Of a stretch of DNA of 64,000 nucleotides, positions 23,782-39,968 are shown in pieces. Both the position numbers and the translations under genes were made by a program. The notes below the pieces were generated by a model that saw only the letters and a program-made list of their open reading frames with translations, did not search any database and was not told where the DNA came from. The DNA comes from Flavivirga jejuensis (GTDB taxonomy: Bacteria > Bacteroidota > Bacteroidia > Flavobacteriales > Flavobacteriaceae). Every line of letters starts with the position of its first letter. The first letter of the stretch is position 1. The DNA lies in contig NZ_JAUOEL010000002.1 in the NCBI RefSeq assembly GCF_030540765.1, positions 248,001 through 312,000 on the forward strand. The letters run 5' to 3'.

Positions 23782-25248
23782 TTAGTTTTTAACTACTATT
23801 TTTTTAGAGACTGAGTTAGAACCGTTATCTAGTTTTAATAGATATAACCCTATTGTTAAATTATGATTAATTACATCATTTTCAATCGTACCACTAAGTA
23901 CTTTTTTACCTGCTATATTGTAAATAGTATAGTTAATTTCTCCTTCTAAAGTTGTTTTAACATTTAACAAGTTAGTTGAAGGATTTGGGTAAATTGAAAG
24001 AGAACTATCTAATTCAAATTCAGAAGCGCTTAATGTTGTTAATAATGATGTATCAACACCAAATAATTCTCTTCCTATATCAGCAGGACCTGTAGGATTT
24101 TGATCAGTATCATAACTAGCTTCAAAATATAGTTTATTACCTACAGCAGTAATTTCATCAACCCTATCAAATGAGTCAAGATCTATTGCTTGTACAGTTG
24201 TTCCGTTTGTTCTATACAAACGGCGTTGATTACCAGGAGAAAGAGGATATGCTTTACCACCATAATATAAGTACCCATCACCTGGATCAGCAAAATCATC
24301 AGGATGGTGGTTAGCTGTTATAGTACTAAGTTCGGTAACTGTCCCTGTTGCAGGGTCATACGATATAAGTTGGTCGTAGGTGCCTAATTTACCGTCAAAA
24401 TACAGTTTACCATTCCAAGCGTACGTATAGTTAACATCAGAAACACTAGATGCAGCAGCTACTTGTTTGGTGCCATCTGGTGTACCATCGGTTTCCCATA
24501 AAGTAGTATCACCCTCATTTGTAAAATAAACCTTGTTTCCCAACTTTGCGAAATAATTTAAATCGGCATCTGCAGCCGTACCATCAAAATCTTTAACCAA
24601 GGTATAACTTTGATTAGGAATATCATAAAGATATAATTCCTTGCCAACAGAAGTTCCAGCTATCTCATATTTTACATGACATAAAATAGAATTATCATCA
24701 AGAGCAATGTAACTACTTCCAGCATCTGTTACTTCACCTGTACCCATATCTGGTAATTTTTGAAAGGTTTCACCGTCATATTCATATAAAACATCAAAAT
24801 AAACTTGCATATAAGCTTTATCGCCAATAACAATAGGTGTATTAATTTGATAATTAATACCTTGAGCTAATGTTCCTTCTTCGGTACCATCAGTTTTGTA
24901 GATATTGTGATCACCATCATTTGCGTAAAAATATAATTCATTTTTTAATATAAAAAAAGATTGAGGGCTTGAGTTTTCATCACCTACATTAATATCTTTT
25001 ACTAACGTTGTTCCAGCATCAGTACCGTCAGAAACCCATAGCTCTTTACCAACATCTACGTCACCAGTGTTAGAAGCAAATGAGTCATCGGCAGAAAAAT
25101 AAAGTTTTCCATCAAATGCAAATAATTTGTCAGGGCTTGAGTGGGCAGTGGTGGCAAAATTAGTAAAATTAATGTCTTTAATAAGTGTAATTTGTGAGTT
25201 TGCTATACCTGAAAGTAACAGTATAGCATAAAAGTAAATTTTTTTCAT
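23782..25248 (-). CDS. Secreted ELWVSDGT-repeat protein with T9SS sorting domain, module B
   Basis: The 488-residue protein has an N-terminal signal peptide (KIYFYAILLLSGIANSQ), a series of beta-rich repeats of the ELWVSDGTxxGTxLVKDI kind (first at about 68-88) that suggest a propeller-like surface protein, and a C-terminal type A sorting domain (about 410-488: LSIYPNPSTN ... YLLKLDNG ... KKIVVKN). It should be exported by type IX secretion and displayed or released. I know no enzymatic motif in it. Its upstream promoter motif matches that of the module's FecR gene, so it probably belongs to the same sigma regulon. Paralogue at 35921-37435. Confidence 0.85.
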   Translation of the reverse strand: MKKIYFYAILLLSGIANSQITLIKDINFTNFATTAHSSPDKLFAFDGKLYFSADDSFASNTGDVDVGKELWVSDGTDAGTTLVKDINVGDENSSPQSFFILKNELYFYANDGDHNIYKTDGTEEGTLAQGINYQINTPIVIGDKAYMQVYFDVLYEYDGETFQKLPDMGTGEVTDAGSSYIALDDNSILCHVKYEIAGTSVGKELYLYDIPNQSYTLVKDFDGTAADADLNYFAKLGNKVYFTNEGDTTLWETDGTPDGTKQVAAASSVSDVNYTYAWNGKLYFDGKLGTYDQLISYDPATGTVTELSTITANHHPDDFADPGDGYLYYGGKAYPLSPGNQRRLYRTNGTTVQAIDLDSFDRVDEITAVGNKLYFEASYDTDQNPTGPADIGRELFGVDTSLLTTLSASEFELDSSLSIYPNPSTNLLNVKTTLEGEINYTIYNIAGKKVLSGTIENDVINHNLTIGLYLLKLDNGSNSVSKKIVVKN

Positions 25249-25276: not shown

Positions 25277-25304
25277 TTACGTTAGGTTATAATTTTACCC
25301 TTAG
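25277..25304 (-). promoter_or_regulatory. ECF-type promoter of the module B T9SS gene
   Basis: On the minus strand, ctaagggtaaaattataacc...cgtaat has GGG at 25298-25300 and CGT at 25279-25281, exactly 16 bases apart. The same arrangement occurs upstream of FecR B, FecR C and T9SS C. The spacing resembles -35/-10 blocks of ECF sigma promoters. Confidence 0.65.
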
Positions 25305-25880
25305 CCTATTTTTATTTTTTTTTGAAATTTTTAAAACTAAATCTCGTGTTTTTCTTGTTTTGTTGTTAAAAATTCATAAAATCGCTTATTTTGTTTTGTT
25401 TTGTGTAATAGTTTTTTTTTTAGAAAAAAACATATAAAAAGTAGAAAACCTGTGTGTCTTTGGTGGTGGGCTTTTAGCGTTTAATTATTGTGTAATAATA
25501 AGGGGGTTTTTGTTTTAAGTAGTTTAAAAAAATAGATGAGATAATTATGTTGAAAACTTATAAGTTACGTTGCTTAATTTCTGTCTATAAAATATTTTAT
25601 TAATAGGCTATGATTGTTATATTTGATAATATATTGTCTTAATAATATTGAATTTAGTTAAAAAAAAAACTTGTTATGGTTTTGAGAAGAATACAAGTAT
25701 AAAAGCTCTTAACTATTGAAGAGTAGTTACTAAAATAAGTTCGATTATGTTAATATATTTACGAATTGAGGAAACTAGGTTGTTTTTATAGGATTCTTGT
25801 TAGCCATCATAAATAGTGAATAGATTGATAATACAGTTAATATTATAGTTTTAACCAAAACTAGAGCGATAGTAAGCTGG
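25305..25880. other. Gene-free interval, partly conserved between modules B and C
   Basis: No gene is seen. About 25305-25590 is closely matched by 37496-37765 in module C, then the two diverge until a shared block just after the sigma stop (25840-25880 and 38000-38031) that could form a weak hairpin (aaccag/ttggtt) on the minus strand. The conserved part lies directly upstream of the T9SS promoter. Confidence 0.6.
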
Positions 25881-26465
25881 TTACTGTTTAAAAACATATT
25901 TATAGATGAATAACAAAAATAAATTATCTTCTTTAAAAGCTTTTCGTATTTTTTTATAAGCGGTATACATGTGAGACTCTACTGTTTTTACAGAAATATC
26001 TAATTGCTCTGAAATTTCCTTATACTTAAGACCTTGAAACTTATTCATGTACAAAATCTGTTTGCATTGTTCTGGTAGTGTTTCTATTATATTTTTTAAT
26101 TTAATAATACGTTTTTCTAGAGCTTCAGGGTCTTCTGTGATTCTCTCTCTAAGCGCTTGTTCTTTAAGTTCATTAAAAAAAGCATCTCTTTTTTTTTGTT
26201 TTCTGTAAGTATCAATATACGTGTTGTATGTTATTCTGTATAAATAACTTTTAACAGATTTTTCAGTATTTATTTTTAATCTATTCTTCCAAAGTGTTAT
26301 AAATGTTTGCTGAACAATATCCTCAGCTTCATGCAAATTGTGAGTGTAGGTAACCGCATAATCTAAAAGTTTTTTATAATAACGCTCAAACAATACCCTA
26401 AATGCTTTTCTATTGCCTTTTTTAATGTTTTTAGCCAATATAGAGTCGTTCGAGAGAGTTTTCAA
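25881..26465 (-). CDS. ECF sigma factor, module B
   Basis: This 194-residue ECF sigma factor has region 2 (FRVLFERYYKKLLDYAVTYTHNLHEAEDIVQQTFITLWKN) and region 4 (LPEQCKQILYMNKFQGLKYKEISEQLDISVKTVESHMYTAYKKIRK). It is divergent from FecR B across 134 bases and nearly identical to the module C copy. The start codon appears to be TTG (26463-26465); no ATG is available at the family N-terminus. Near-identity of region 4 in B and C suggests that both sigma factors read the same promoters. Confidence 0.92.
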   Translation of the reverse strand: MKTLSNDSILAKNIKKGNRKAFRVLFERYYKKLLDYAVTYTHNLHEAEDIVQQTFITLWKNRLKINTEKSVKSYLYRITYNTYIDTYRKQKKRDAFFNELKEQALRERITEDPEALEKRIIKLKNIIETLPEQCKQILYMNKFQGLKYKEISEQLDISVKTVESHMYTAYKKIRKAFKEDNLFLLFIYKYVFKQ

Positions 26466-26537
26466 ATTAATTTTTAATTAAAAATACAAATATGCTAATA
26501 ATTAAAAATACAAATACCCTAAAAAAATAAAAATTGA

Positions 26538-26565
26538 CTAAGGGTAAAATAATAAATTAGCGTAT
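26538..26565 (+). promoter_or_regulatory. ECF-type promoter of module B FecR-SusCD
   Basis: ctaagggtaaaataataaat...cgtata has GGG at 26542-26544 and CGT at 26561-26563 with a 16-base gap. It lies 35 bases ahead of the FecR start. It is identical in layout to the motifs at 38677, 25277 and 37470. Confidence 0.65.
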
Positions 26566-26599
26566 AAAATGTACAACCTCAAATAAAACAAACACACCA

Positions 26600-27736
26600 T
26601 TGAAAAAAATAACAATAAAATATATAACAAATACAATATCTTCAAAAGAGCTAAGTGAACTTAAAGTATTGTTAAGAGAAAAGAAAAACCAAGACCTTTT
26701 TAAAGACTATATAAAAGATTATTATGATATCCATACATTACTAAATAAACCAGATATAGATAGTGCCTATAAAAAAATATGGGACACAATAAATGAAAAG
26801 GAGCAACCAAGGCAGTATGTTTTACCAAGTTGGTTTAAATACTCCTCTGCCGCGGCTTTAATAGTTCTTACGTTTTCATTCTCTTATTTCTTTATAAACA
26901 ATCAAAAACCAATTAATAATTTAAATTCTTTTGAAGAAGTCGTAAGCCCTGGTGTTGATAAGGCTACCTTAACTCTTGAAGATGGTTCTAGTGTTGTTTT
27001 AGAAAAAGGACAGCATTATAATACAGAAGAGGTTGAAAGTAATGGGGAACAAATAGTATATAATAAAAAAGGAAGTACTAGCATTTCTTACAACTACCTT
27101 ACTGTGCCAAGAGGCGGTAAGTTTGAGGTAAAGTTAGCAGATGATACGCAGGTTTGGTTAAATTCTGAATCAGAATTAAAATACCCTGTAACCTTTAAAA
27201 AAGGAGAAACCCGTCAAGTAGTACTTGTATATGGTGAAGCTTATTTTGATGTGTCTCCTAGCGAAAATCATAATGGAGCAACTTTTAAAGTTGTATCTAA
27301 TCTGCAAGAAGTAGAAGTGTTAGGTACAGAATTTAATATAAAAGCTTATAAAGATGAAGAAAGTGTCTATACCACTTTGGCCGAAGGTAAAGTGTCTGTA
27401 AGAAATGACGTTTTTAAAGAAAAACTAAACGTAGGTGAACAATCTGTTTTAAATGAAGTAACAGGTAATATTAAAATTAAAACTGTTAATGTTTATAATG
27501 AAACAGCTTGGAGAAAAGGTATATTTTCTTTTAAAAACAAACCTTTAAAGGAAATTATGAAAGCTTTGTCTAGATGGTATGATATAGATATAATTATTAA
27601 AAACAAAAAACTTGAAGATATAAGATTTAATGGTGTTTTAAGTAAAAGTATGAATCTAGAAGAAATTTTAGAACCTATTAAAAGAAATATTAATCTAAAT
27701 TATAAAGTATATGATGACAAAATAGTTCTGGAATAA
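26600..27736 (+). CDS. FecR-type anti-sigma factor, module B
   Basis: 378 residues: a cytoplasmic N-terminus, a transmembrane helix at about 82-99 (SAAALIVLTFSFSYFFI), a periplasmic FecR domain (VSPGVDKATLTLEDGSSVVLEKG; LTVPRGGKFEVKLADDTQVWLNSES) and a C-terminal domain (FSFKNKPLKEIMKALSRWYDIDIII). It starts with TTG at 26600, like the other two FecR genes. It is about 97 percent identical by eye to the module C copy, so the anti-sigma/sigma pairs of B and C could cross-talk. SusC follows after ~96 bases that hold a hairpin. Confidence 0.9.
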   Translation: MKKITIKYITNTISSKELSELKVLLREKKNQDLFKDYIKDYYDIHTLLNKPDIDSAYKKIWDTINEKEQPRQYVLPSWFKYSSAAALIVLTFSFSYFFINNQKPINNLNSFEEVVSPGVDKATLTLEDGSSVVLEKGQHYNTEEVESNGEQIVYNKKGSTSISYNYLTVPRGGKFEVKLADDTQVWLNSESELKYPVTFKKGETRQVVLVYGEAYFDVSPSENHNGATFKVVSNLQEVEVLGTEFNIKAYKDEESVYTTLAEGKVSVRNDVFKEKLNVGEQSVLNEVTGNIKIKTVNVYNETAWRKGIFSFKNKPLKEIMKALSRWYDIDIIIKNKKLEDIRFNGVLSKSMNLEEILEPIKRNINLNYKVYDDKIVLE

Positions 27737-27738
27737 AA

Positions 27739-27785
27739 AAAGAGACGAGGTTTATACCGCTCAAAGTAAATTAACCTCATCCCTT
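27739..27785 (+). promoter_or_regulatory. Conserved hairpin between FecR and SusC, module B
   Basis: The stem gacgaggtt (27744-27752) pairs with aacctcatc (27773-27781) with one mismatch, starting just after the FecR stop. It is conserved in module C and matched by a differently paired hairpin in module A. An attenuator or RNA-processing role is possible. Confidence 0.5.
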
Positions 27786-27832
27786 AGATTTAAATACATT
27801 AATTAAATGAATAACTAATGCCTAACAAATTT

Positions 27833-30800
27833 ATGAATTTTAATTTTACTAAAGAATTTTACTTTTTTAGGAAAACAACAAAAAACTTTATTATGAGAAC
27901 AATGCTGTTGTTGTTTTGCTCTACCATTTTTAGTTTAACACCCAATGATATTATTTCACAGAATGCGAATGTTAAAATTAAGGAGAACAAAACAGTTACC
28001 ATTGATGAAATCTTTGATATTATTCAGACGCAAACAGATTATAAATTTATATACCGTTCAGATCTTTTTAAGGATTTTCCTCTGGTTAATTTAAGTAAAA
28101 GTACTATTAAAGTACAAGACTTACTATCTAAAGCTGTTCCTAATGAAGATTATCATTTTGACTTACTTAAACATAAGACAATTGTAATCGAAAAAAAAGC
28201 CTCAAGAATAATACAAGAGGAAATTACTGGGAATGTTACTGATGAGAATAAGGTTCCTTTATTTAATGTAACTGTTCAAATTAAAGGGACTAGAAAGGGA
28301 GTACTAACAGATTTTGATGGTAATTACAGTATTAAAGGTCTTAAAACTACCGATGTGCTAGTTTTTTCTAGTTTGGGGTTTGAAACACAAAATATAAAGG
28401 TAGGCGACAAAAAAGTGATAAATGTTGTTTTAAAAGAGTCTGATAATGAGTTAGATGAAATAGTTGTTACAGGAAAGAAAGCAGTTAATACAGGATATCA
28501 AGTTGTTTCAAAGGCAAAATCTGTTGGTTCTTTTGAATCTGTAGGAGCCGAAGTAATAGAAACCAAATTTCAAACAAATATTTTAGAAAGAATAGAAGGG
28601 ACTCTAAGCGGGTTATCTTTATATCGGGGTACTCCCGTAATTAGAGGGGTTTCCACAATCTTAGGAGAATCCTATCCTTTAATTATTTTAGATGGTGTGG
28701 TTTATAATGGTGATTTAGAGTCTATTAATCCTAACGATATAGAGAGTGTTTCGGTTTTAAAAGATGCTACAGCGGCTTCGATTTACGGTGTTAGAGCTGC
28801 AAATGGAGTTATTGTGGTAACTACTAAAGGAGGTGTTGTTGGTAAGCCAACTTTTAGCTATACATCATCATATCAAATAGAACCAAAGCCAAGTAGATCA
28901 TATCAAAACTTAATGTCATCTTCCGAATTTGTAGATTATCAGATAGATATTTTTAATGTGACAGGTTCATCTGCGAGAAAAGATAAAAAGTTAGCTATGG
29001 ATGAAGTCAATACTTTATTGTATGATCATCGTGATGGTTTAATTTCAGATGAGTATTTAAATTCTGAGTTAAATAGACTTAGGGGGTTAGATGGATATAG
29101 TCAAGTTGAGGATGAGTTAATAAGTTCAAAATATACACAACAACATAGCCTTGCATTAAGAGGGGGGACTAAAACCCATCAATATTCATTATCTTTAAAT
29201 TATTCAAGTAGAGGTTCTTTTGAAGTAGATAGAGCTACTGAAACCATAGGGCTTAACGCAAAAAACTATTTTAAATTAAATGATTGGCTTAAATTTGATA
29301 CGTCTCTTATAACTAGTTATGGTTTTTCAGATAATTATACAGGTATTTCAGGTGTTTCCTTATTAGGAGCTACAAGACTTCCTTATGAAGTGCTTAGAGA
29401 TGAAGATGGAAATCCAGCGGAGTGGAATCACATTAAGAGTGATTGGGAGATTCAAAGACTTATTGGGTCAGGTTTATTAGATCAATCATATTATCCGTTG
29501 AACGAGTTAAATGAGGTACAGACAACAAGTAAAAGTCCTTCTGTTAATATAAATGTTGGAACAGAAATTAAGCTTTCAGAATCATTGAGTGTACAATTAA
29601 GAGGTCAATTACAGTATGGTAGAAGCCATAGTCAAATTTATACTTCAGGAGATAGTTATTCTGTTCGTAATATGATAAACAATGCTGCTCAAATAGTAGA
29701 TGTAATTATTAATGATGTAATTACTGATCCTGTTTTAGTGGATCCAATTACTGGTGTCAAAACTGGAGGTGAAATTATTAATAACATTCCTTACGGAGGT
29801 CAAATTACAGAAACATTTAATGATAGAAATTCATATACGTTACGAGCGCAACTTAACTACTCTAAAGTATTTAATGATAAACATGATTTAAGGGTGCTTG
29901 TAGGGGGAGAAAGGAATAAAGCCATTACAGAAACATATGGATTTAAACGTTATGGTTTCGATCCTGATAATTTAACTTTTACCGCTGTAAATGAGTATAC
30001 ATTATCTCAACAGATTTTAGGAACAGAATCTACTTTAGGAGTTTTTACTTTGGGAGGGCAAACAGTTAACCAAATTACGGATAATAGATATATATCTGCT
30101 TATGGGAATATTTCGTACATGTTTGATGATAAATTAGGACTTAATGCAAGTGCAAGAATAGATGAATCTAATCTATTTGGTAAAAACCCTAAATATACAT
30201 TTCGTCCGCTTTGGTCTTTTGGAGCAAACTATATCATAGACACACAGCCTGTGTCATGGCTAGATAGATTAAAACTTAGAGCCACCTATGGGATAAGTGG
30301 TAATGTTTATGATAATGGCGGGCCAGAGGCTATAGCATCACTTCTTACTACACCTAATGCTGCTGGAGAAACACAGGCTTATATATATTCTCCGCCAAAT
30401 GAAGAGTTGAGATGGGAACAAACTTTTATAACAAATATAGCCTTAGATTTTGAGTTGTTTTCTAAGAAAATAACAGGTACTCTTGAATATTATAACAGGA
30501 ATACCAAAGACGCCATTGCAAAGTTAGACACAGATCCTATTTTAGGCTGGTCTCAGGTTGCTAAAAATTATGCCTCATTAAATAATAGAGGTGTTGAACT
30601 TCAAATTAATGCACCATTTATAAGTACACAAGATTTTAGGTGGAGCGGTAATTTAATACTTAATTATAATAGAAATATAGTTACAGAGTTTATTCCAGAA
30701 TATTCTACATTTTATGCGTATGATTATCTTTACGAAAATTATTTAGTAGAAGGACAAGCATTAAATGCAATTTATACGCTTCGTTATGCTGGCTTAGACG

Positions 30801-31432
30801 AGAAAGGAGCTCCATTAGCTTATAAAGCAGATGGTACTATTGTAGATTCTTATCTTGATTTAGAATTGGAAGATTTGAAAGTTGAAGGAACTAATGATCC
30901 TCCATATCATGCCTCTTTCACCAATAATATAAGCTATAAACAATTTAATCTTTCATTGCTTTTTATTTATTACGGAGGACATGTTCAGAGAGATGTAGCC
31001 GCAGGACAAACGCAAACATATACATATCCCTACTCATTAACACGTAATTTAGATAGGGTACATTTAAATTATTGGAAAGAGCCAGGTGATGAGGCTGATA
31101 TATATACGGCACCAGCAATTAACTGGAATAATAGTGTTTCAAATCCTGACTTTGTTCCAAGTTCTCAAAGAAATATATGGACCTATGCAGATATACATGT
31201 TCAAAAGGCAGATTACGTTAAGCTAAGAAATATATCTTTAGCGTATAATACACCTAAAGCGATCTTAGAAAAAATTAATTTTTCTAGCTTAAGATTTACT
31301 TTTGATATTCGTAATCCTTTTCTCTGGACAAATAACAGAAATAATCTAGATCCTGAGGTTTGGACGGGCGATGGTGGTAGAGGAACTGCTATTATGCCAA
31401 CATATACTTTTGCAATTAATTTAAGATTTTAA
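27833..31432 (+). CDS. SusC/RagA-family TonB-linked transporter with STN domain, module B
   Basis: About 1199 residues from the ATG at 27833 (an ATG five codons earlier is also in frame; the chosen one aligns with the module A start MKINFTKEF). Order of parts: signal region to about 45; STN domain (IDEIFDIIQTQTDYKFIYRSDLF); carboxypeptidase-D-like domain (ITGNVTDENKVPLFNVTVQIKG); plug with ATAASIYGVRAANGVIVVTTKGG; barrel. It imports its ligand with SusD and probably signals through FecR. The N-terminal third is nearly identical to module C, whereas barrel segments differ in patches, including 30-residue stretches around 625-660, which points to altered ligand specificity. Confidence 0.93.
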   Translation: MNFNFTKEFYFFRKTTKNFIMRTMLLLFCSTIFSLTPNDIISQNANVKIKENKTVTIDEIFDIIQTQTDYKFIYRSDLFKDFPLVNLSKSTIKVQDLLSKAVPNEDYHFDLLKHKTIVIEKKASRIIQEEITGNVTDENKVPLFNVTVQIKGTRKGVLTDFDGNYSIKGLKTTDVLVFSSLGFETQNIKVGDKKVINVVLKESDNELDEIVVTGKKAVNTGYQVVSKAKSVGSFESVGAEVIETKFQTNILERIEGTLSGLSLYRGTPVIRGVSTILGESYPLIILDGVVYNGDLESINPNDIESVSVLKDATAASIYGVRAANGVIVVTTKGGVVGKPTFSYTSSYQIEPKPSRSYQNLMSSSEFVDYQIDIFNVTGSSARKDKKLAMDEVNTLLYDHRDGLISDEYLNSELNRLRGLDGYSQVEDELISSKYTQQHSLALRGGTKTHQYSLSLNYSSRGSFEVDRATETIGLNAKNYFKLNDWLKFDTSLITSYGFSDNYTGISGVSLLGATRLPYEVLRDEDGNPAEWNHIKSDWEIQRLIGSGLLDQSYYPLNELNEVQTTSKSPSVNINVGTEIKLSESLSVQLRGQLQYGRSHSQIYTSGDSYSVRNMINNAAQIVDVIINDVITDPVLVDPITGVKTGGEIINNIPYGGQITETFNDRNSYTLRAQLNYSKVFNDKHDLRVLVGGERNKAITETYGFKRYGFDPDNLTFTAVNEYTLSQQILGTESTLGVFTLGGQTVNQITDNRYISAYGNISYMFDDKLGLNASARIDESNLFGKNPKYTFRPLWSFGANYIIDTQPVSWLDRLKLRATYGISGNVYDNGGPEAIASLLTTPNAAGETQAYIYSPPNEELRWEQTFITNIALDFELFSKKITGTLEYYNRNTKDAIAKLDTDPILGWSQVAKNYASLNNRGVELQINAPFISTQDFRWSGNLILNYNRNIVTEFIPEYSTFYAYDYLYENYLVEGQALNAIYTLRYAGLDEKGAPLAYKADGTIVDSYLDLELEDLKVEGTNDPPYHASFTNNISYKQFNLSLLFIYYGGHVQRDVAAGQTQTYTYPYSLTRNLDRVHLNYWKEPGDEADIYTAPAINWNNSVSNPDFVPSSQRNIWTYADIHVQKADYVKLRNISLAYNTPKAILEKINFSSLRFTFDIRNPFLWTNNRNNLDPEVWTGDGGRGTAIMPTYTFAINLRF

Positions 31433-31437
31433 AAATT

Positions 31438-32889
31438 ATGAAACATATTTATAAAAGAGTATTAGCGTTACTAATTATTTTTAATTTTTGTTCTTGTAGT
31501 GACTTTCTTGAAGTAATACCAAAAGGACAATTTATACCTTCAGAATATGAAGATTATGAATATTTATTGAATTATGAAAATCTTATATCTCAGACTCAAT
31601 TGGGTTATGTCAATCTTTTTACGGATGATTTAGAAAAATCTTTAGATCCAGATATGCCAGATGTACTCGGTTTTACTGCAGTGCCTGATTTTGCTGTAAA
31701 TTATTATTATTTTAACTCTGGACCTACTCATGAAGCTGATGTAAATGATCCTTTTTTTACATCAATGTATTCGCAAATTTACACGTTTGATTTTGTAGCA
31801 AATAATGTAATGGAGTCTACAGGTGGATCTGAAGAAGAAAAATCAGCTATTAGAGCAGAAGCTTTATTTGGTAGAGCATACAATTTTTTCAAATTAATAA
31901 ATCTTTATGCAAAAGCCTACGATCCTGATACAGCTAGCACAGATTATGGTGTACCCCTAATTTTAGATGATAATATTTATGCAACCTATGGTAGAAATTC
32001 TGTAGAAGAAGTTTATAATCAAATAATTGATGATTTGTTAGAAGCTATTCCTTCTCTTCCCGTAACTGCCTCAAGTAATTTCCACCCAACAAAAGCTTCT
32101 GGTTATTTATTGTTATCTAAAGTTTATTTATTTATGGGGGGATTTGAAAATGCACTTACTTATGCAAATTTAGCTTTAGATAATAAAGGAGATTTTGAAT
32201 TACAAGATTTGAAAATTTACATAGCTTTTGATGGAGGAGACTGGGGAGAAAGGATTTTTAATACTATAACATTTGGAGCAATGGAAAATATGGAAGACGT
32301 TGCAGAAAATATGTATATTAAAAATTCGTCAACTAATTTTAATGGAAGTGCTTTAGCTTCAGAAGAATTAGTAGATATATTTGAAAAAGATTTACCAAGT
32401 GGTTCAATTGATAAACGTAGAGATTTGTATTTTGAAACGGATAAAGCCTCTTTTGTTAATTTTATTTATTTTCCTGGTAGAACAATTTATGGAGCCTATG
32501 TAAATAGAAATGCAGGAATGTTGTTACCAGATTTATATCTTATTTTAGCAGAAGCAGAAGCTAGAGTTGGTAGTAAAGATAAAGCCATGGAGCATATAAA
32601 CTACCTTAGAGATTATAGAATTACCAACAATGTGCCATTAACAGCGGCAACAGATGAAGAAGCTTTATTAATGGTGTTTGAAGAAAGAAGAAGAGAGCTT
32701 TGTTTTCTTTCTGATTATAGGTTTGTGGACCTAAAAAGGCTTAATAAAGAACCTGAATTTGCTAAAACAGTCACTCATACTGTACTAGGTGTAGATTACA
32801 CATTACCTCCAAATGATCCAAGGTATATTTTACCAATTTCTAATGATGTAATACAATTTAATCCAGACCTTCCTTTATACGATAGATAA
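31438..32889 (+). CDS. SusD/RagB-family outer membrane lipoprotein, module B
   Basis: 483 residues with a lipoprotein signal (FNFCSCSDFLEV; the lipobox Cys is in the FCSC region, about residue 18-20). The SusD fold signatures RAEALFGRAYNFFKLINLYAKAYDPDTASTDYGVP, LLPDLYLILAEAEARVGSKDKAMEHINYLRDYR and FEERRRELCFLSDYRFVDLKRLN are present. It begins 5 bases after SusC and partners it as a ligand-capturing lid. It differs from the module C copy mainly in the middle (about 255-340) and N-terminal loops. Confidence 0.92.
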   Translation: MKHIYKRVLALLIIFNFCSCSDFLEVIPKGQFIPSEYEDYEYLLNYENLISQTQLGYVNLFTDDLEKSLDPDMPDVLGFTAVPDFAVNYYYFNSGPTHEADVNDPFFTSMYSQIYTFDFVANNVMESTGGSEEEKSAIRAEALFGRAYNFFKLINLYAKAYDPDTASTDYGVPLILDDNIYATYGRNSVEEVYNQIIDDLLEAIPSLPVTASSNFHPTKASGYLLLSKVYLFMGGFENALTYANLALDNKGDFELQDLKIYIAFDGGDWGERIFNTITFGAMENMEDVAENMYIKNSSTNFNGSALASEELVDIFEKDLPSGSIDKRRDLYFETDKASFVNFIYFPGRTIYGAYVNRNAGMLLPDLYLILAEAEARVGSKDKAMEHINYLRDYRITNNVPLTAATDEEALLMVFEERRRELCFLSDYRFVDLKRLNKEPEFAKTVTHTVLGVDYTLPPNDPRYILPISNDVIQFNPDLPLYDR

Positions 32890-32898
32890 ACAAAACAT

Positions 32899-34026
32899 AT
32901 GAAAAATATATTTATAATTTTAGTAACAGCATTATTATTTTCATCATTTCAAAAGCCCCAATACGTAATTAATGGTGTTTTTAAAGGCGGTGAAGGAAAA
33001 GAAATAGTATTAGAAGAACTTTCTAATTTAAGAGTTGTAAAACGTTTAGGTTCCGCTCATGTAGATGCGAATGGTAAATTTACTTTTATAGGAGACGCTT
33101 TTAACGAAATTAAAGAAGCCAGATTATCAATTGTAGGTACAAAGTTTAAAGAAGATTTTATTATTGAAGATGCGGTTGTTATTGATGTTAATATTCTAGC
33201 AAAAGTTGTTACAGAAAAATACACAAAATATCTTTTTGATTTAGAACGTGGAAAAGAAGATGCAGTCTATGCGAAGCTTAAAGCCAATTATAAAGATAGA
33301 AGAACTGTGTGGGGAGGTAAAAGTAATAGAGTAGTTGTAGCAAATAGAGAAGGAAAACTAAGTGATGAAGAGTTAGCAAAAACGCGGGCAAAATTTGATG
33401 CTGATTTTATTGATGAAACGCTCAATATTTTAGCTAATTATTCGGATAGTTATGGAGCTTATTTTTATATAAAAAACTATATGTTACGATTTGATCCGCT
33501 ACCTGTAGTTGAAAAGGCATTTAACAACCTATCTGAGCGTATTAAGAATTCAAAAGAAGCAAAGGTTTTTAAATACGAGGTCGAAGAAATAAAAAGATCA
33601 TTTGTAGGCGGTATCCCTAATGATTTTTCCATTCCTTCATTAGATGGAGGAGAAACTAGTTTGTATCAATATAGAGGTAAAGTATTGTTGATAGATTGTT
33701 GGGCAACTTGGTGCGGACCTTGTATTAAGGAAATGCCACATATAGGAGAAATATACAATGAATTTCATCCTAAAGGTTTAGAAGTTTTAGGAATATCTTA
33801 TGATAGAAAGGAAACTAAATGGCATAATTTTTTAAAGAAAAATGAGTATGTTGTTTGGGATCAGGCTTCATCATTAAAAGAATGGAATTGTCCTTCAGCA
33901 AAAGTATTCGCAGTAAATACAATACCAGAAACTATTTTAATAGATAAAAATGGGGTAATTGTTGCTAGAGGCCTTAAAGGCAATAAACTTAAAGCAAAAA
34001 TTAAAGAAATACTTGCAGTAGAGTAA
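32899..34026 (+). CDS. TlpA-like thioredoxin protein, module B (lipobox cysteine missing)
   Basis: 375 residues: an N-terminal hydrophobic signal, a DUF4369-like domain and a C-terminal thioredoxin domain with WCGPC and the cis-Pro motif NTIPET. Where the A and C copies have the lipobox LLFSC, this one reads LLFSS, so it is probably not lipidated and may be soluble in the periplasm. It begins only 9 bases after SusD, lacking the 216-225-base hairpin spacer found in A and C. The last ~140 residues differ from module C at only about five positions, although the N-terminal part is strongly diverged, which suggests gene conversion. Confidence 0.85.
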   Translation: MKNIFIILVTALLFSSFQKPQYVINGVFKGGEGKEIVLEELSNLRVVKRLGSAHVDANGKFTFIGDAFNEIKEARLSIVGTKFKEDFIIEDAVVIDVNILAKVVTEKYTKYLFDLERGKEDAVYAKLKANYKDRRTVWGGKSNRVVVANREGKLSDEELAKTRAKFDADFIDETLNILANYSDSYGAYFYIKNYMLRFDPLPVVEKAFNNLSERIKNSKEAKVFKYEVEEIKRSFVGGIPNDFSIPSLDGGETSLYQYRGKVLLIDCWATWCGPCIKEMPHIGEIYNEFHPKGLEVLGISYDRKETKWHNFLKKNEYVVWDQASSLKEWNCPSAKVFAVNTIPETILIDKNGVIVARGLKGNKLKAKIKEILAVE

Positions 34027-34114
34027 TATAAACTCATAAGAGTTTGATATAAATATAAAGGAACATACAAAACAGTAAAGAAAGGTGAAATCTCACCAAG
34101 TGTGTGAAGTTGAT

Positions 34115-34144
34115 AAATATCGAGGGTTATAACCCTCGATATTT
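34115..34144 (+). terminator. Terminator of module B
   Basis: A perfect 14-bp stem (aaatatcgagggtt / aaccctcgatattt) with a two-base loop is followed by eight T. It is the near twin of the module A terminator. Confidence 0.9.
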
Positions 34145-34145
34145 T

Positions 34146-34450
34146 TTTTGATTAAATTTATAAAGTTGAATAAAAAGCTTAATAAAATTATTTTCCATAT
34201 TGTTGAGATGCTATTTGCTCAATCACTTTTAAGCCTTACATCGTTTAAAACCATTAATTTTTGTGTCTATTTTTACTTATTTCGCACGTATTTAATTTTA
34301 GTACATAAAGCTATATTCTACGTAAGAAAATATTATAGGAAATAAATCCTTATGTTTATTGTAGAATGAAGCCCTAGTTATTGATGTCAACCTCCTATAA
34401 GGTTAATAAAGAGCTATAACTAAAATATAAATACGGACGAGGTAAATAGC
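34146..34450. other. Gene-free interval between module B and the IS4 element
   Basis: The first ~165 bases resemble the sequence beyond the module A terminator (minus strand, 14320-14559). The last ~60 bases (around 34410-34460) resemble the sequence next to the T9SS terminator of module B (23680-23730). An open frame here (34148-34345) is not convincing as a gene. Confidence 0.55.
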
Positions 34451-34462
34451 AAAAAAAGCTGT

Positions 34463-34472
34463 CTGAAAAGAT
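34463..34472. repeat. Target-site duplication, left copy
   Basis: tctgaaaaga is repeated at 35877-35886 immediately outside the other end of the IS4 element; ten bases is within the usual size for this family. Confidence 0.9.
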
Positions 34473-35876
34473 AGTAGTGGTCGGAAGAAATTCTGACCAC
34501 TTTTTTTATGTTTCTTTTTTAAAAATCATATTGGGGTCACCTCCAGTATGAGTTATAATTATTGCAATTGCAAGGTTTCTAATTTCCATTTTCATTCTTC
34601 TTTTAGCTGTTTTATATCCTAGATTATTGGCCTTTTTATATAGTAAAATTAGCATCGCAGTAATTAAGGACATGTAAATCATTACTTGTATACCGTTTTT
34701 ATTTAATGATAAAAAATGTTTTAGGTTAAGTTCTTGCTTTATAAATCTAAAAAAGACTTCTATATCCCAACGTTTTCTATAATAATCTGTAATTTCTTTA
34801 GCAGACAAGTCCATAGCGTTAGTTATTATCCAAAATTCTTTTTCAGGCGTACTTTTACTTCTAGCTATGACAAGCCTCAATGGGTTTTCGACTTTTTCTT
34901 CTCTATAATGCGTATTTCCTTTGCTATTTTTTATAGGGACACCAGTATAGAACTTTACTATAGCGTCCTTTATCAATACAAGCTCCCCTAAGTCTTTTTG
35001 TTGATGTTCTTCTATAAGAGATTGTACCTGTTGATATTTTCTATTTTCCCTTGCTCTAACAATAAAAGAGATCTTTTGGTCATCAAATTTTTTCATGGTT
35101 CTGGAGGATTGTAACCCGCGATCTATCACATAAATATTATTATGGTCTTTTTGCTTTTTTACATGGTTAAGAATTGTTTTTGGTAATGCATTCTCCTCGG
35201 AAGTATAGGTTTGTGAATCAAATACTTCTATGCCACTAGGAAGTAGACCATCAAACAACATCGTATATTTAATAAATTTTTTACCATTATTTTGATCGAT
35301 TCCTGCTTTTAGTTTTCCTGCTAGTTCAGAAACAATAGTACTATCTACACGTATCAGGTTATATTTAGTTTGCTCAATGGTACTATGTTGATTTGAAAAT
35401 TGTTCATATATACAATCAAAAATCTCTTTAAAATAACCGACATCAATTTTAGAGAGTCTTTCAGAGATAGAACTCCTTCTAACGGTTTCTGAATTATCTA
35501 AGTTAAATAATGTTTTAAAAATAGGATCATTAAAGGTATCTTCTAAACTACGCTGGCTTAGTTTTTCATTTTCTAAAATACCATAAAGTAGCAGGTAAAA
35601 CATTTTTTTGCCATGAAGAACCTTAGCATAATAATCTACTTTTGTGTTGGTGGATAATTGCGAAAGAAGTGACTCGGGAATGATGTGTAGCAATTCGTTT
35701 ACAGAAATTTTATGATCTTTAAATACTGACATAAAGGATTGATTATTAGTATGTTAAGATACGAAAAACACATGTAAAAACCTAGATAAAACACTAAAAA
35801 TCAGTCAGTTGAAGCTAATAAATTTAGAAATGTAAAAACAAAAAAGTCGGAAGAAAAAATCTTCCGACCACTACTA
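34473..35876 (-). mobile_element. IS4-family insertion sequence, 1404 bp
   Basis: The ends are 16-bp perfect terminal inverted repeats, tagtagtggtcggaag (34473-34488) and its reverse complement (35861-35876), each with an adjacent hairpin. The element is flanked by a 10-bp target duplication, tctgaaaaga (34463-34472 and 35877-35886). It carries one transposase gene on the minus strand. Removing the element and one duplicate restores a perfect hairpin, gctgtc-tgaaaa-gacagc, with A and T runs on either side: the terminator of the T9SS gene of module C. Confidence 0.93.
34506..35732 (-). CDS. IS4-family DDE transposase
   Basis: 408 residues. The DDE triad is D130 (RVDSTIV), D204 (VIDRGLQSS) and E325. 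The IS4 signature Y-(2)-R-(3)-E-(6)-K fits exactly in YRKRWDIEVFFRFIKQ (Y318, R321, E325, K332). An N-terminal DUF4372-like region precedes it. The reading frame is intact and the element has matching ends, so it may be mobile. The stop lies 33 bases from the left end and the start about 144 bases from the right end. Confidence 0.94.
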   Translation of the reverse strand: MSVFKDHKISVNELLHIIPESLLSQLSTNTKVDYYAKVLHGKKMFYLLLYGILENEKLSQRSLEDTFNDPIFKTLFNLDNSETVRRSSISERLSKIDVGYFKEIFDCIYEQFSNQHSTIEQTKYNLIRVDSTIVSELAGKLKAGIDQNNGKKFIKYTMLFDGLLPSGIEVFDSQTYTSEENALPKTILNHVKKQKDHNNIYVIDRGLQSSRTMKKFDDQKISFIVRARENRKYQQVQSLIEEHQQKDLGELVLIKDAIVKFYTGVPIKNSKGNTHYREEKVENPLRLVIARSKSTPEKEFWIITNAMDLSAKEITDYYRKRWDIEVFFRFIKQELNLKHFLSLNKNGIQVMIYMSLITAMLILLYKKANNLGYKTAKRRMKMEIRNLAIAIIITHTGGDPNMIFKKET

Positions 35877-35886
35877 TCTGAAAAGA
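35877..35886. repeat. Target-site duplication, right copy
   Basis: Second copy of tctgaaaaga. Together with the left copy it splits the terminator hairpin of the gene ending at 35921; the stem half gacagc and its T run lie to the right. Confidence 0.9.
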
Positions 35887-35920
35887 CAGCTTTTTTTGCT
35901 TTTAATCTATAAAAAAGGGA

Positions 35921-37435
35921 TTAGTTTTTAACTACTATTTTTTTAGAAATTGAGTTAAAACCGTTATCTAATTTTAATAGATACAACCCTGAAGTTAAAT
36001 TATGATTAATCACTTCATTTTCAATCGTACCTTTAAGTACTTTTTTACCTGTTACATTGTAAATAGTATAGTTAATTTCTCCTTCTAAAGTAGATTGAAC
36101 ATTGAAGTAATTAGTTGAAGGGTTTGGATAAATTGAAAGTGAACTATCTAATTCAAATTCAGAAGCGCTTAATATTGATGACGGATCAACACTAAATAAT
36201 TCTCTTCCTATACTAAAAAAATCAATTTTAAAATCAGCTTCAAAATAAAGTTTATTGTTTAAAACAACAATATCATCAACATTGTCAATTAAACCAGATT
36301 CTACTGTCTCAATTGTTACTCCATCTGTTTTAAATAAGTTGTGTAAGTCAGAACTAGATCTTCCAGCGTAATATAAGTACCCATCACCAGGAGCAGCAAA
36401 ATGCATGGGGTTATGATCACGTTCTATATTATATGGACCAGTAATATCTGTTAGAGAGTCCGCATCTGGGTCATATACATAAAGTTGATCAAAGACAGTG
36501 GTATCATTTTCAGGTTCAAGATCACCTTCAAAAAATAGTTTATCTTCCCAAACATATAAATCTCTAACGTCACCAATTGCAGCAGTTGTTGATACTTGCA
36601 TTGTTCCGTCTGTGGTTCCATCAGTAATCCATAATTTACCATCAAACGAAAAGTAAACAGCGTCTCCTAGTTTTGTTAAATAAGACATAGATAAATACTC
36701 TAATTCACCATCTACAACCGTACCATCATCACCAAAATTTTTAATCAAGGTATAAGTTTGATCAGTAATATTGTATAAATATAATTCTGGTCCAAGAGGA
36801 GTTTCTCCTGCTATAGTATATTCCGTATTGAATAAAATAGAATTATCATCAAGAGCAATATAACCAGCATTATAACCAACGTTTACTGAACCTTCCCCGC
36901 TATCTGGTAGTTCTTTAAAGGTTTCACCATTAAACTCATAATAAGTACCAGTAAGATCAGTAAAATCAGCATTCCAAACATAAGATCTCATATAAGCTTT
37001 ATCGCCAACAATAGTAGGTATTCCTGCTTGAAAATTATTATTAAATGAATTTGTTCCATCTTCTGTACCATCGGTAGTGTACATATTGTAACTAGCTGTT
37101 CCTGCATCGTATGCTTGAAAATATAATGCATTATTTAATATAAAAAAATTGCCTGGGTTAGAATCAGCATCAGTTCCATCAAGATCTTTTACTAACTTTG
37201 TTTCAGTTTCAGTACCATCAGAAACCCATAGTTCGTTACCAACATCTGTTTCACCAGTATTAGATCCAGATGAATCATCTGCAGCAAAATAAAGTTTTCC
37301 ATTAAATGCAAATAAACTTGTTGGAGAAGAAGGTTTAGTACCAGGATTAATGTCTTTTACAAGTGTGATATGTGTGGTTTGTGAGTTTGCTATACCTGAA
37401 AGTAATAGTATAGCATAAAAGTAAATTTGTTTCAT
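35921..37435 (-). CDS. Secreted ELWVSDGT-repeat protein with T9SS sorting domain, module C
   Basis: A 504-residue paralogue of the protein at 23782-25248: the same signal peptide (FYAILLLSGIANSQ), ELWVSDGTETETKLVKDLDGT-type repeats (DGT also around 235-260), and a C-terminal sorting domain (LSIYPNPSTNYFNVQSTLEGEINYTIYNVTGKKVLKGT). The ends are near identical between copies but the middle is well diverged, including many surface-type substitutions. Its terminator is interrupted by the IS4 element, so transcripts may read into the element's end, which itself has hairpins. Confidence 0.85.
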   Translation of the reverse strand: MKQIYFYAILLLSGIANSQTTHITLVKDINPGTKPSSPTSLFAFNGKLYFAADDSSGSNTGETDVGNELWVSDGTETETKLVKDLDGTDADSNPGNFFILNNALYFQAYDAGTASYNMYTTDGTEDGTNSFNNNFQAGIPTIVGDKAYMRSYVWNADFTDLTGTYYEFNGETFKELPDSGEGSVNVGYNAGYIALDDNSILFNTEYTIAGETPLGPELYLYNITDQTYTLIKNFGDDGTVVDGELEYLSMSYLTKLGDAVYFSFDGKLWITDGTTDGTMQVSTTAAIGDVRDLYVWEDKLFFEGDLEPENDTTVFDQLYVYDPDADSLTDITGPYNIERDHNPMHFAAPGDGYLYYAGRSSSDLHNLFKTDGVTIETVESGLIDNVDDIVVLNNKLYFEADFKIDFFSIGRELFSVDPSSILSASEFELDSSLSIYPNPSTNYFNVQSTLEGEINYTIYNVTGKKVLKGTIENEVINHNLTSGLYLLKLDNGFNSISKKIVVKN

Positions 37436-37469
37436 TCTTTATTAGTTTTTAAAGTTATATTATTAATAA

Positions 37470-37495
37470 TACGTTAAGTTATTGTTTTACCCTTA
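37470..37495 (-). promoter_or_regulatory. ECF-type promoter of the module C T9SS gene
   Basis: On the minus strand ctaagggtaaaacaataac...cgtatt; GGG (37490-37492) and CGT (37471-37473) are 16 bases apart, as at the other three strong sites. Confidence 0.65.
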
Positions 37496-38031
37496 GCCTA
37501 TTTTTATTTTTTTTTGAAATTTTTAAAACTAAATCTTGTATTTTTCTTGTTTTGTTGTTAAAAATTCATAGAATCGCTTATTTTGTTTTGTTTTATGTAA
37601 TAGTTTTTTAGAAAAAAAAATCAGAAAACCTGTGTGTCTTTGATGGTGGGCTTTTAACGTTTAATTATTGTGTAATAATAAGGTGTTTTTGTTTTAAATA
37701 GTTTTTAAAAACAGATGAGATAATTATGTTGAAACTTATAAGTTACGTTGCTTAGTTTCTGTCTATACATATTTAATTAATAAACTGTAGATTGGCATAC
37801 TTGATGTGATACTGAAAGTTTAATAATCAGTAATTGCCTGATAAGATTTAATTTGATTTCCAGAAAAAATATTTTTAATGACCTAAGATTAAGCTAATGT
37901 ATAATGTATTTGTGTATAGACTAAAATTAGGTAGTTTTTATAAGGTTTTTGATAACCATAATAAAAAGTGCAGAGATTAATAATGCAGTTAATATATAGT
38001 TTTAACCAAAACTAGAGCGATAGTAAGCTGG
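37496..38031. other. Gene-free interval, conserved with module B
   Basis: Counterpart of 25305-25880: the first ~270 bases are closely similar, the middle is diverged, and the last ~35 bases are conserved. No gene is seen on either strand. Confidence 0.6.
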
Positions 38032-38616
38032 TTACTGTTTAATAACATATTTATAGATGAATAACAAAAATAAATTATCTTCATTAAAAGCTTTTCGTAT
38101 TTTTTTATAAGCGGTATACATGTGAGACTCTACTGTTTTTACAGAAATATCTAATTGTTCCGAAATTTCCTTATACTTAAGACCTTGAAACTTATTCATA
38201 TACAAAATCTGTTTGCATTGTTCTGGTAGTGTTTCTATTATATTTTTTAATTTAATAATACGTTTTTCTAGAGCTTCAGGGTCTTCTGCAATTCTCTCTC
38301 TAAGAGCTTGTTCTTTAAGTTCATTAAAAAAAGCATCTCTTTTTTTTTGTTTTCTGTAAATATCAATATAAGTGTTGTATGTTATTCTGTACAAATAACT
38401 TTTAATAGATTTTTCAGTATTTATTTTTAATCTATTCTTCCAAAGTATTATAAATGTTTGCTGTACAATATCTTCTGTTTCGTGTAAATCGTGAGTATAG
38501 GTAACAGAATAATCTAAAAGTTTTTTATAATAACGCTCAAACAATATCTTAAATGCCTTTCTATTGCCTTTTTTTATATTTTTAGCCAATATAGAGTCGT
38601 TTGAGAGAGCTTTCAA
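38032..38616 (-). CDS. ECF sigma factor, module C
   Basis: 194 residues, differing from the module B sigma factor at roughly a dozen positions, mostly in the N-terminal half; region 4 (QLDISVKTVESHMYTAYKKIRK) is identical. The start codon appears to be TTG (38614-38616). It is divergent from FecR C across 122 bases. Identical DNA-binding regions imply that it recognises the same GGG-N16-CGT promoters as the module B factor. Confidence 0.92.
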   Translation of the reverse strand: MKALSNDSILAKNIKKGNRKAFKILFERYYKKLLDYSVTYTHDLHETEDIVQQTFIILWKNRLKINTEKSIKSYLYRITYNTYIDIYRKQKKRDAFFNELKEQALRERIAEDPEALEKRIIKLKNIIETLPEQCKQILYMNKFQGLKYKEISEQLDISVKTVESHMYTAYKKIRKAFNEDNLFLLFIYKYVIKQ

Positions 38617-38676
38617 ATTAATTTTTTACATTTTTAATTATAAAGTACAAATATGCTAAAAAAAAATAAAATTAAG

Positions 38677-38704
38677 CTAAGGGTAAAACAATAAATTAAC
38701 GTAT
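38677..38704 (+). promoter_or_regulatory. ECF-type promoter of module C FecR-SusCD
   Basis: ctaagggtaaaacaataaat...cgtatt; GGG (38681-38683) and CGT (38700-38702) are separated by 16 bases, 36 bases ahead of the FecR start. Confidence 0.65.
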
Positions 38705-38738: not shown

Positions 38739-39872
38739 TTGAAAAAACTAACAATAAAATATATAACAAATACAATATCTTCAAAAGAGCTAAGTGAACT
38801 TAAAGTATTGTTAAGAGAAAAGAAAAACCAAGACCTTTTTAAAGACTATATAAAAGATTATTATGATATCCATACATTACTAAATAAACCAGATATAGAT
38901 AGTGCCTATAAAAAAATATGGGACACAATAAATGAAAAGGAGCAACCAAGGCAGTATGTTTTACCAAGTTGGTTTAAATATTCTGCTGCGGCTTTAATAG
39001 TTCTTATGTTTTCATTGTCTTATTTCTTTATAAACAATCAAAAACCAATTAATAATTTAAATTCTTTTGAAGAAGTCGTAAGCCCTGGTGTTGATAAAGC
39101 CACTTTAACTCTTGAAGATGGTTCTAGTGTTGTTTTAGAAAAAGGACAGCATTATAATACAGAAGATGTTGAAAGTAATGGAGAACAAATAGTATATAAT
39201 AAAAAAGGAAGTACCAGTATTTCGTACAACTACCTTACTGTGCCAAGAGGCGGTAAGTTTGAGGTAAAGTTAGCAGATGATACGCAGGTTTGGTTAAATT
39301 CTGAATCAAAATTAAAATACCCTGTAACCTTTAAAAAAGGAGAAACCCGTCAAGTAACCCTTGTATATGGCGAAGCTTATTTTGATGTGTCTCCTAGCGA
39401 AAATCATAATGGAGCAACTTTTAAAGTTGTATCTAATCTGCAAGAAGTAGAAGTGTTAGGTACAGAATTTAATATAAAAGCTTATAAAGATGAAAAAAGT
39501 GTCTATACCACTTTGGCCGAAGGTAAAGTGTCTGTAAGAAATGACGTTTTTAAAGAAAAACTAAACGTAGGTGAACAATCTGTTTTAAATGAAGTAACAA
39601 GTAATATTAAAATTAAAACTGTTAATGTTTATAATGAAACAGCTTGGAGAGAAGGTATATTTTCTTTTAAAAATAAGCCTCTAAAGGAAATTATGAAAGC
39701 TTTGTCTAGATGGTATGATGTAGATATAATTATTAAAAACAAAAAACTTGAAGATATAAGATTTAATGGGGTCTTAAGTAAAAGTATGAATCTAGAAGAA
39801 ATTTTAGAACCTATTAAAAGAAATATTAATCTAAATTATAAAGTATATGATGACAAAATAGTTCTGGAATAA
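38739..39872 (+). CDS. FecR-type anti-sigma factor, module C
   Basis: 377 residues, TTG start at 38739. Same layout as the module B protein: a cytoplasmic N-terminus, a transmembrane helix (AAALIVLMFSLSYFFI, about 82-98), a periplasmic FecR domain and a C-terminal domain ending YKVYDDKIVLE. Only scattered substitutions and one missing residue near the membrane helix distinguish it from module B. SusC follows after the conserved hairpin. Confidence 0.9.
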   Translation: MKKLTIKYITNTISSKELSELKVLLREKKNQDLFKDYIKDYYDIHTLLNKPDIDSAYKKIWDTINEKEQPRQYVLPSWFKYSAAALIVLMFSLSYFFINNQKPINNLNSFEEVVSPGVDKATLTLEDGSSVVLEKGQHYNTEDVESNGEQIVYNKKGSTSISYNYLTVPRGGKFEVKLADDTQVWLNSESKLKYPVTFKKGETRQVTLVYGEAYFDVSPSENHNGATFKVVSNLQEVEVLGTEFNIKAYKDEKSVYTTLAEGKVSVRNDVFKEKLNVGEQSVLNEVTSNIKIKTVNVYNETAWREGIFSFKNKPLKEIMKALSRWYDVDIIIKNKKLEDIRFNGVLSKSMNLEEILEPIKRNINLNYKVYDDKIVLE

Positions 39873-39873
39873 A

Positions 39874-39921: not shown

Positions 39922-39968
39922 AGATTTAAATACATTAATTAAATAAATAACTAATGCCTAACAAATTT

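Follow-up and report, generated by a model that had tools for sequence, protein, structure and literature searches.

Why should four copies of one bipartite motif lie before two unrelated kinds of gene within a single stretch of the genome of Flavivirga jejuensis, a marine member of the Flavobacteriaceae, and what reads them? The stretch (hereafter the window; 64,000 nucleotides, positions 248,001 to 312,000 of contig NZ_JAUOEL010000002.1) holds three related modules, A, B, and C, each with a gene for an extracytoplasmic function (ECF) sigma factor divergent from a gene for a FecR-family anti-sigma factor, which is followed by SusC, SusD, and TlpA-like genes (module C and the SusD and TlpA genes of module A were assigned partly from similarity to module B). 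Beside sigma B and sigma C, 3' of the sigma gene and in the same direction, lies a gene for an ELWxxDGT repeat protein (ELW) with a sorting domain for the type IX secretion system (T9SS). The motif, CTAAGGGTAAAA-N11-CGTA, precedes both ELW genes as well as FecR B and FecR C. Based on comparative data, we consider it highly probable that the paralogous ECF sigma factors B and C read it as a promoter, and that it defines a surface-signaling regulon. The four-site motif is confirmed as an observation, and its interpretation as an ECF promoter of a SusCD/T9SS regulon is supported by the sequences of relatives.

Scanning the window with GGGTAAAA-N{8,14}-CGTA yielded four exact matches, at 25278-25300 (-), 26542-26564 (+), 37470-37492 (-), and 38681-38703 (+). 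The spacer is N11 at all four, equivalent to GGG-N16-CGTA, and CTAAGGGTAAAA occurs without mismatch in the window at just those places. A first-pass annotation, made from the letters of the window, had placed the motif at these four sites with a gap of 16 bases between GGG and CGT; both points were borne out by the pattern scan, except that the ELW B site starts at 25278 and not at 25277. Dinucleotide shuffles of the window give an expected count of 0.02, and none of 100 reached four. The genome-wide scan with fixed spacing, which had been suggested as a check, found four exact copies of GGGTAAAA-N11-CGTA in 6,017,851 bases, all of them the window sites, and 26 copies with one mismatch. The latter are at noise level, since a reversed-pattern control gave 52 matches when one mismatch or none was allowed; open reading frames (ORFs) of more than 150 amino acids (aa) contain 20 of the 26. 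Two of the other six have an ORF start within 150 bases downstream (404 aa with a lipoprotein-like start, and 101 aa). Considered as further targets, these ORFs look neither SusCD- nor T9SS-like, and their sites were treated as noise. The full 27-base form has four exact matches in the genome, the next two carrying three mismatches, and none in the control. With a spacer one base longer, 449 matches were found at up to two mismatches, the first of them at one mismatch, so that there is no exact match at this spacing. Together, the genome counts, the wrong-spacing pattern, and the reversed-pattern controls rule out a chance origin of the exact sites.

The proteins encoded around these sites are readily assigned. 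Sigma B and sigma A score 147.9 and 140.6 bits against TIGR02985 (ECF sigma, Bacteroidetes expansion family 1; cut-off 126.4), with sigma regions 2 and 4 detected as PF04542 and PF08281; the placement of sigma C in this family rests on its 94% identity to sigma B. Region 4 is identical in sigma B and C, as the first-pass annotation had it. FecR B, which adjoins the sigma gene on the opposite strand, matches PF04773 and PF16344 above their cut-offs, the module B SusC matches the SusC/RagA model TIGR04056 (541.9 bits, cut-off 368.25), and SusD B matches PF14322 and PF07980 above their cut-offs. ELW B and C combine a signal-peptide-like start with a type A T9SS sorting domain (TIGR04183; 45.6 and 46.1 bits, cut-off 23) and exceed the cut-off of 65 bits for TIGR04534 (ELWxxDGT; 87.2 and 75.7 bits). 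They are therefore predicted T9SS type A cargo. At the DNA level, modules B and C are 97.7% identical in FecR, 87.2% in SusC, 84.6% in SusD, and 82.3% in ELW, and the intergenic DNA between ELW and sigma genes is 87.7% identical outside the motif. By these identities, the two modules are recent paralogues, so the four window sites are not independent events and the test has to come from relatives.

ELW B was used as a protein query against 60 genomes, including that of the window; 10 gave matches, among them three further full-length relatives, in Flavivirga aquimarina (G005), in another genus (G025), and in G001 (G and L denote our genome and locus numbers). In F. aquimarina and G025, both found by protein similarity, the same unit of ELW, sigma, FecR, SusC, and SusD genes is present, and the motif precedes both ELW and FecR. 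An exact pattern scan of genome contigs, which may leave out records near the genome of the window, returned 11 stretches. The true sites among these are one stretch of F. aquimarina with both sites and two stretches of Polaribacter sp. DS7-9. The other eight were taken as chance: six lie inside ORFs (in L107 the ORF is SusC-like and from Segatella), two are in gaps between ORFs, and, as judged by ORF starts, none is before a sigma/FecR or T9SS gene. The DS7-9 genome contains exactly two sites at up to two mismatches, both of them perfect. One precedes FecR beside a sigma/FecR/SusC/SusD module. The other, on a different contig, precedes a gene for a protein with a glycosyl hydrolase core (PF11790, 4.1e-39) and a T9SS sorting domain, with fucosidase, sulfatase, and SusCD-like genes as neighbors; PF11790 is, we presume, linked to GH128. 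Of 166 genomes from the DS7-9 genus, four match at up to one mismatch; the site of G525 is within an ORF. G519, found by motif, has three perfect sites, at two FecR-like genes and one ELW gene. A scan of 397 genomes of the family, a sample that excludes G001 and G005, gave 57 matches in 51 genomes at up to two mismatches, six of them mismatch-free (four in G000, two in G025), and about 95 matches (counted by hand) in the reversed control. The reading of the window as a regulon of uptake genes and a secreted protein, offered by the first-pass annotation as the natural one, thus finds support outside it: the motif stands before both gene types in F. aquimarina, G025, and G519, and in trans at an unrelated T9SS hydrolase in DS7-9.

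All 13 aligned sites have the form GGG-N16-CGTA, an agreement that is partly by construction, because five of them (two in DS7-9, three in G519) were found by motif. After removal of one duplicate row, the 12 non-identical rows are invariant in 19 of 27 columns; an A-rich stretch upstream is conserved too, and the outer flanks vary. The distance from CGTA to the start codon is 29-38 nt at 12 of the 13 sites, where that of the DS7-9 FecR uses a downstream TTG (an upstream ATG would make it 23). In Flavobacterium psychrophilum, a CGT box at -10 is taken as a sign of ECF promoters, and the median 5' untranslated region is 24 nt (PMC9723704), a leader that fits a transcription start a few bases past CGTA. 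Hence, as expected of ECF promoters, the sites are bipartite with -35 and -10 elements, have a fixed spacer and a CGT-type -10, and lie upstream of their candidate targets.

To approach the family of promoters without using the motif, homologues of sigma B were searched in the 397 genomes (E up to 1e-52, up to eight candidates scored per genome). This gave at least 28 matches in at least 22 genomes. A FecR gene was present in the stretch at 25 of the 28 sigma loci (including the three of the window), on the strand opposite to sigma in 24, and at 20 of these 25 loci the pattern TA[AG]GGG-N16/17-[AC]G[TCA] occurs within 130 bases upstream of FecR; 400 shuffles gave the pattern at a mean of 0.14 loci and a maximum of 2. 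This architecture, together with the motif kept in F. aquimarina, G025, and G519, supports the identification as ECF promoters beyond the window. The -10 element varies by locus: the B/C group, to which the G292 sigma belongs, has CGTA, the A group of the window genome and of G025 has AGTA, and other loci have CGAC, CGTC, or AGCA. A weaker variant had been described before FecR A, and it is indeed present, as AGGGG with GGG-N16-AGTA. Because the A counterpart in G025 (L174) has it too, this variant is, by comparison, a sub-clade form of the A group.

These data also bear on the possibility that the sites are ECF promoters read by another sigma factor, for example sigma A, with B and C exerting at most partial control. 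Many related sigma/FecR pairs exist in the genome, as indicated by 21 FecR_C matches, and FecR A has the related GGG-N16-AGTA promoter. Nevertheless, we regard this as unlikely: the exact copies lie beside sigma B and C only, the A group retains its own AGGGG...AGTA form in two genera (L174, L178), and the same or a near-identical motif stands beside sigma factors 76% (G025) and 67% identical, the latter in G292 with TAAGGGTTTAACAATAAATTAACGTA before its FecR. Slightly less probable still is that a separate DNA-binding regulator, be it an activator or a repressor, uses the motif as its operator. The conserved block of 27 bases does exceed a minimal -35/-10 pair, and sigma binding and start sites are deduced from the sequence; against this stand the bipartite ECF form, the fixed 16-nt spacing, a start codon 29-38 nt away in 12 of the 13 cases, and the related forms before FecR at the 20 of 25 homologous sigma loci. 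That the likeness is a functionally meaningless by-product of the recent B/C duplication (the compared segments are 82-98% identical, and the intergenic DNA outside the motif 87.7%) is scarcely tenable and already contradicted, for FecR and ELW promoters share the motif though the genes are unrelated, the FecR/ELW pair is kept in other species and genera, and the trans site of DS7-9 before an unrelated gene on another contig together with the cross-species sites rules out duplication alone as its source.

In the promoter read by sigma B and C that we favor, region 4 would bind GGG as the -35 core and CGTA would serve as the -10, the A-rich stretch lying upstream. Sigma recognition, transcription starts, signaling, cross-talk, and ligand are what we infer here. 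Without ligand, FecR would keep the sigma factor at the inner membrane. Substrate uptake by SusC/SusD would let the periplasmic N-terminus of SusC signal to FecR, the sigma factor would be released, and RNA polymerase would start approximately 6-10 nt past CGTA, both at FecR-SusC-SusD-TlpA and at the separately placed gene for the T9SS-exported ELWxxDGT protein. As sigma B and C share region 4 and the promoters are near-identical, each is expected to work at all four. In the B/C-type loci read (B and C of the window, G005, G025, G519, DS7-9), the sigma gene has no copy of the motif directed toward it, so that FecR is part of the predicted regulon and sigma is not; the system would thus boost its own anti-sigma factor and receptor, and not its own sigma factor.

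At the SusC N-terminus, the 183 residues before the plug were modeled with a mean predicted local distance difference test score (pLDDT) of 74.9 and a predicted template modeling (pTM) score of 0.43, and the best Foldseek targets were N-terminal extension (NTE) domains, foremost 9hfj, the NTE of a dextran SusC (TM score 0.92, normalized to the target); we infer that this match covers the CarbopepD_reg_2 part. The part preceding the NTE appears STN-like, as PF07660 (STN) was weakly detected in four of seven SusC N-termini (best 8.1e-6 and 26.0 bits in the G025 orthologue, cut-off 28.4). The SusC proteins of ECF-sigma/anti-sigma loci are described as having both NTE and STN domains, with STN acting in anti-sigma signaling (PMC7782687). 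The order given there is NTE then STN, whereas in the SusC of the window the STN-like part comes first.

Several observations weigh against the regulon as proposed. The DS7-9 hydrolase starts approximately 125 nt past CGTA, compared to 29-38 nt at the other 12 sites. The STN match is below the Pfam cut-off in all seven SusC N-termini and absent in SusC B and C. The motif is absent from the ELW locus of G001, the most distant one (approximately 40% identity); its ELW and FecR share AGGG-N17-CTCTT, which is at most suggestive, because 105 of 5000 shuffles share some such pair. In G171, no motif match was found in the 170 bases read before the ELW gene. Among 11 other genomes of the genus, ELW B has matches in F. 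aquimarina (60%), G001 (40%), and, in the C-terminal region only, two more, with none in seven, so by this count the unit is patchy within the genus. Finally, the argument is built on the comparison of sequences.

What could the ELWxxDGT protein contribute? In its own genome, a search for the family matched the ELW B and C ORFs only. Modeled from four sequences (mean pLDDT 74.3), ELW B consists almost entirely of beta structure. By E-value, its top matches in the PDB are propeller-containing proteins with poor superposition (root-mean-square deviation, rmsd, above 20 Å); the matches that are both good and compact are to Tako8, a designed propeller (TM 0.67 to target, rmsd 5.8), and to Fbw7 (0.53), which are both eight-bladed. 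ELW B is thus likely a beta-propeller. A profile search of the 397 genomes, with up to three candidates scored per genome, gave at least 14 ELW matches in at least 13 genomes, including the two of the window. SusC and SusD homologues were present in the stretch read at all 14 (in L199 approximately 5.5 kb away) and FecR at 11, and nine of the 14 ELW genes lie in one same-direction run with SusCD. At seven loci (L192-L196, L198, L200), ELW is the last gene of a same-direction run FecR-SusC-SusD-unknown-di-haem peroxidase-ELW, after a gap of 27-40 nt in six and 313 nt in one. At L190 and L191, ELW is directly 5' of SusC in the same direction, in the order ELW-SusC-SusD-unknown-peroxidase. The peroxidase is Pfam-confirmed in L190, L191, L195, and L200 and elsewhere judged from position and a similar C-terminus; the protein before it has no Pfam match in these four, which were scanned. 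Given the proximity at 14 of 14 and the nine same-direction runs, ELW-SusCD co-expression looks widespread, and the best reading of these arrangements is that most relatives would tie ELW to SusCD through an operon, and that a copied promoter would do so in the lineage of the window. We tentatively propose, as a possibility short of even odds, that a class of FecR-controlled SusCD importers has the ELWxxDGT propeller as its dedicated surface partner, delivered by the T9SS and equivalent, as a secreted protein, to surface proteins of the SusE/F type. Flavobacteria would keep it co-regulated through an operon or by copying the promoter, and the same copied promoter could bring in further T9SS cargo, for instance a glycoside hydrolase. 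If true, promoter copying would be a general route to rewire surface signaling.

Table 1. Modules, ELWxxDGT genes, and predicted promoters of the window.
Feature	Coordinates	Strand	Remarks
SusC A	17505..21005	-	CarbopepD_reg_2 and Plug
FecR A anti-sigma factor	21096..22223	-	
FecR A variant promoter (predicted), AGGGG type, GGG-N16-AGTA	22258..22281	-	equal form at A counterpart in G025 (L174)
ECF sigma factor A	22588..23175	+	51% identity to sigma B
ELWxxDGT repeat protein B, T9SS type A sorting domain	23782..25248	-	modeled as beta-propeller
CTAAGGGTAAAATTATAACCTAACGTA, predicted ECF promoter of ELWxxDGT T9SS gene B	25278..25304	-	CGTA to ATG 29 nt
ECF sigma factor B	25881..26465	-	TIGR02985, above cut-off
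CTAAGGGTAAAATAATAAATTAGCGTA, predicted ECF promoter of FecR B-SusC-SusD-TlpA	26538..26564	+	CGTA to TTG start 35 nt
FecR B anti-sigma factor	26600..27736	+	PF04773, PF16344
SusC B, N-terminal STN-like part and NTE (CarbopepD_reg_2) domain	27818..31432	+	STN detected in relatives only
SusD B	31438..32889	+	
TlpA-like thioredoxin-fold protein B	32899..34026	+	
ELWxxDGT repeat protein C, T9SS type A sorting domain	35921..37435	-	
CTAAGGGTAAAACAATAACTTAACGTA, predicted ECF promoter of T9SS gene C	37470..37496	-	CGTA to ATG 34 nt
ECF sigma factor C	38032..38616	-	94% identity to sigma B, region 4 identical
CTAAGGGTAAAACAATAAATTAACGTA, predicted ECF promoter of FecR C operon	38677..38703	+	CGTA to TTG start 35 nt
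FecR C	38739..39872	+	
SusC C	39954..43583	+	DNA 87.2% identical to SusC B
SusD C	43589..45040	+	DNA 84.6% identical to SusD B
TlpA-like protein C	45257..46402	+	

Some further features of these loci were noted (Table 1). The 97.7% DNA identity of FecR B and C (26600-27736 and 38739-39872) is well above that of the adjoining SusC (87.2%) and ELW (82.3%) genes, which suggests gene conversion or selection on FecR. TTG is the furthest upstream start listed for FecR A, B, and C and for sigma B and C, and likewise for the FecR and sigma genes in G005 and G025. In G171, a TlpA-like gene and FecR, which flank the sigma gene (L197:2955-4139 and 4910-6058), share AATAAGGG...CGTAAT with spacers of 16 (TlpA) and 15 (FecR), apparently another promoter copy. 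The DNA separating FecR from SusC (27737-27817 and 39873-39953) contains a weak hairpin, GACGAGGTT...AACCTCATC, and 3 of 200 and 7 of 200 shuffles, respectively, fold as well; G519 has the compensatory form GAAGTT/AACTTC (25 of 200 shuffles as good), and the hairpin is not kept in F. aquimarina, where the pairing is broken. Downstream of T9SS gene B, an intact hairpin folds strongly (-22.2 kcal/mol). Its counterpart, the predicted terminator of T9SS gene C, carries an IS4-family element (34470-35878; transposase 34506-35732) inside the loop, flanked by the 6-base repeat TGAAAA that forms the hairpin loop between GCTGTC and GACAGC. The region 3' of module C (46673-51266) encodes two further TlpA-like proteins (46673-48046 and 48132-49508) and an HtrA-like protease. 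Similar TlpA-like, HtrA-type, and DsbD genes lie nearby in G519 and G025, and an M16 peptidase gene in DS7-9 (part of these were scanned). These neighbors hint at a substrate that is peptide or thiol-linked rather than glycan.

Bacteroidota contain many ECF-sigma/FecR/SusCD modules, and few promoters of their sigma factors have been defined. Here, comparison of loci makes the -35 and -10 elements legible and shows the -10 to vary from one sigma sub-group to another; regulons should therefore be predictable from sequence. A little-studied class of T9SS cargo is moreover tied to SusCD importers, which makes its role testable. In the literature searched, which leaves most subscription journals outside, the term ELWxxDGT occurs in no paper, and none of the matches listed was recognized as describing this promoter or an ELWxxDGT regulon. 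Both T9SS proteins of the window are above the cut-off of the family model TIGR04534, which is silent on regulation and on an association with SusCD.

The closest general model is FecI-FecR-FecA, with which the window shares an ECF sigma factor, an anti-sigma factor of the FecR family, and a TonB-dependent receptor that has additional domains at its N-terminus. The gene for FecI is not known to be controlled by its own promoter motif, and the sigma genes of the window lack a copy as well. Unlike in that system, sigma and FecR are on opposite strands, FecR heads the controlled SusC/SusD operon, and a secreted-protein gene outside the operon also has the predicted promoter. The ECF-sigma/anti-sigma SusCD loci of Bacteroides are similar in their SusC proteins with NTE and STN-type domains, their anti-sigma signaling, and their SusCD targets, and control of SusCD and sulfatase genes of a distant locus has been reported for SigW-1 (PMC7782687; PMC12596196). 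The -10 element described for SigW-1 is TGTT and its motif was non-significant, in contrast to the significant motif of SigH-1 (PMC12596196) and to the sharp GGG-N16-CGTA of the window, where the extra target is T9SS-tagged. The SM6 promoters of F. psychrophilum likewise have T9SS-related genes among their targets, yet those listed are genes of the T9SS machinery (gldN, porU) and a sigma/anti-sigma pair, whereas those of the window are SusCD and T9SS cargo; the comparison covers targets and does not extend to the -35 elements (PMC9723704). In PorXY-SigP of Porphyromonas gingivalis, an ECF sigma factor also controls T9SS-related genes. There, these are reported to be T9SS component genes controlled via a two-component system (PMC4800418), whereas in the window the predicted target is one cargo gene with its SusCD partner.

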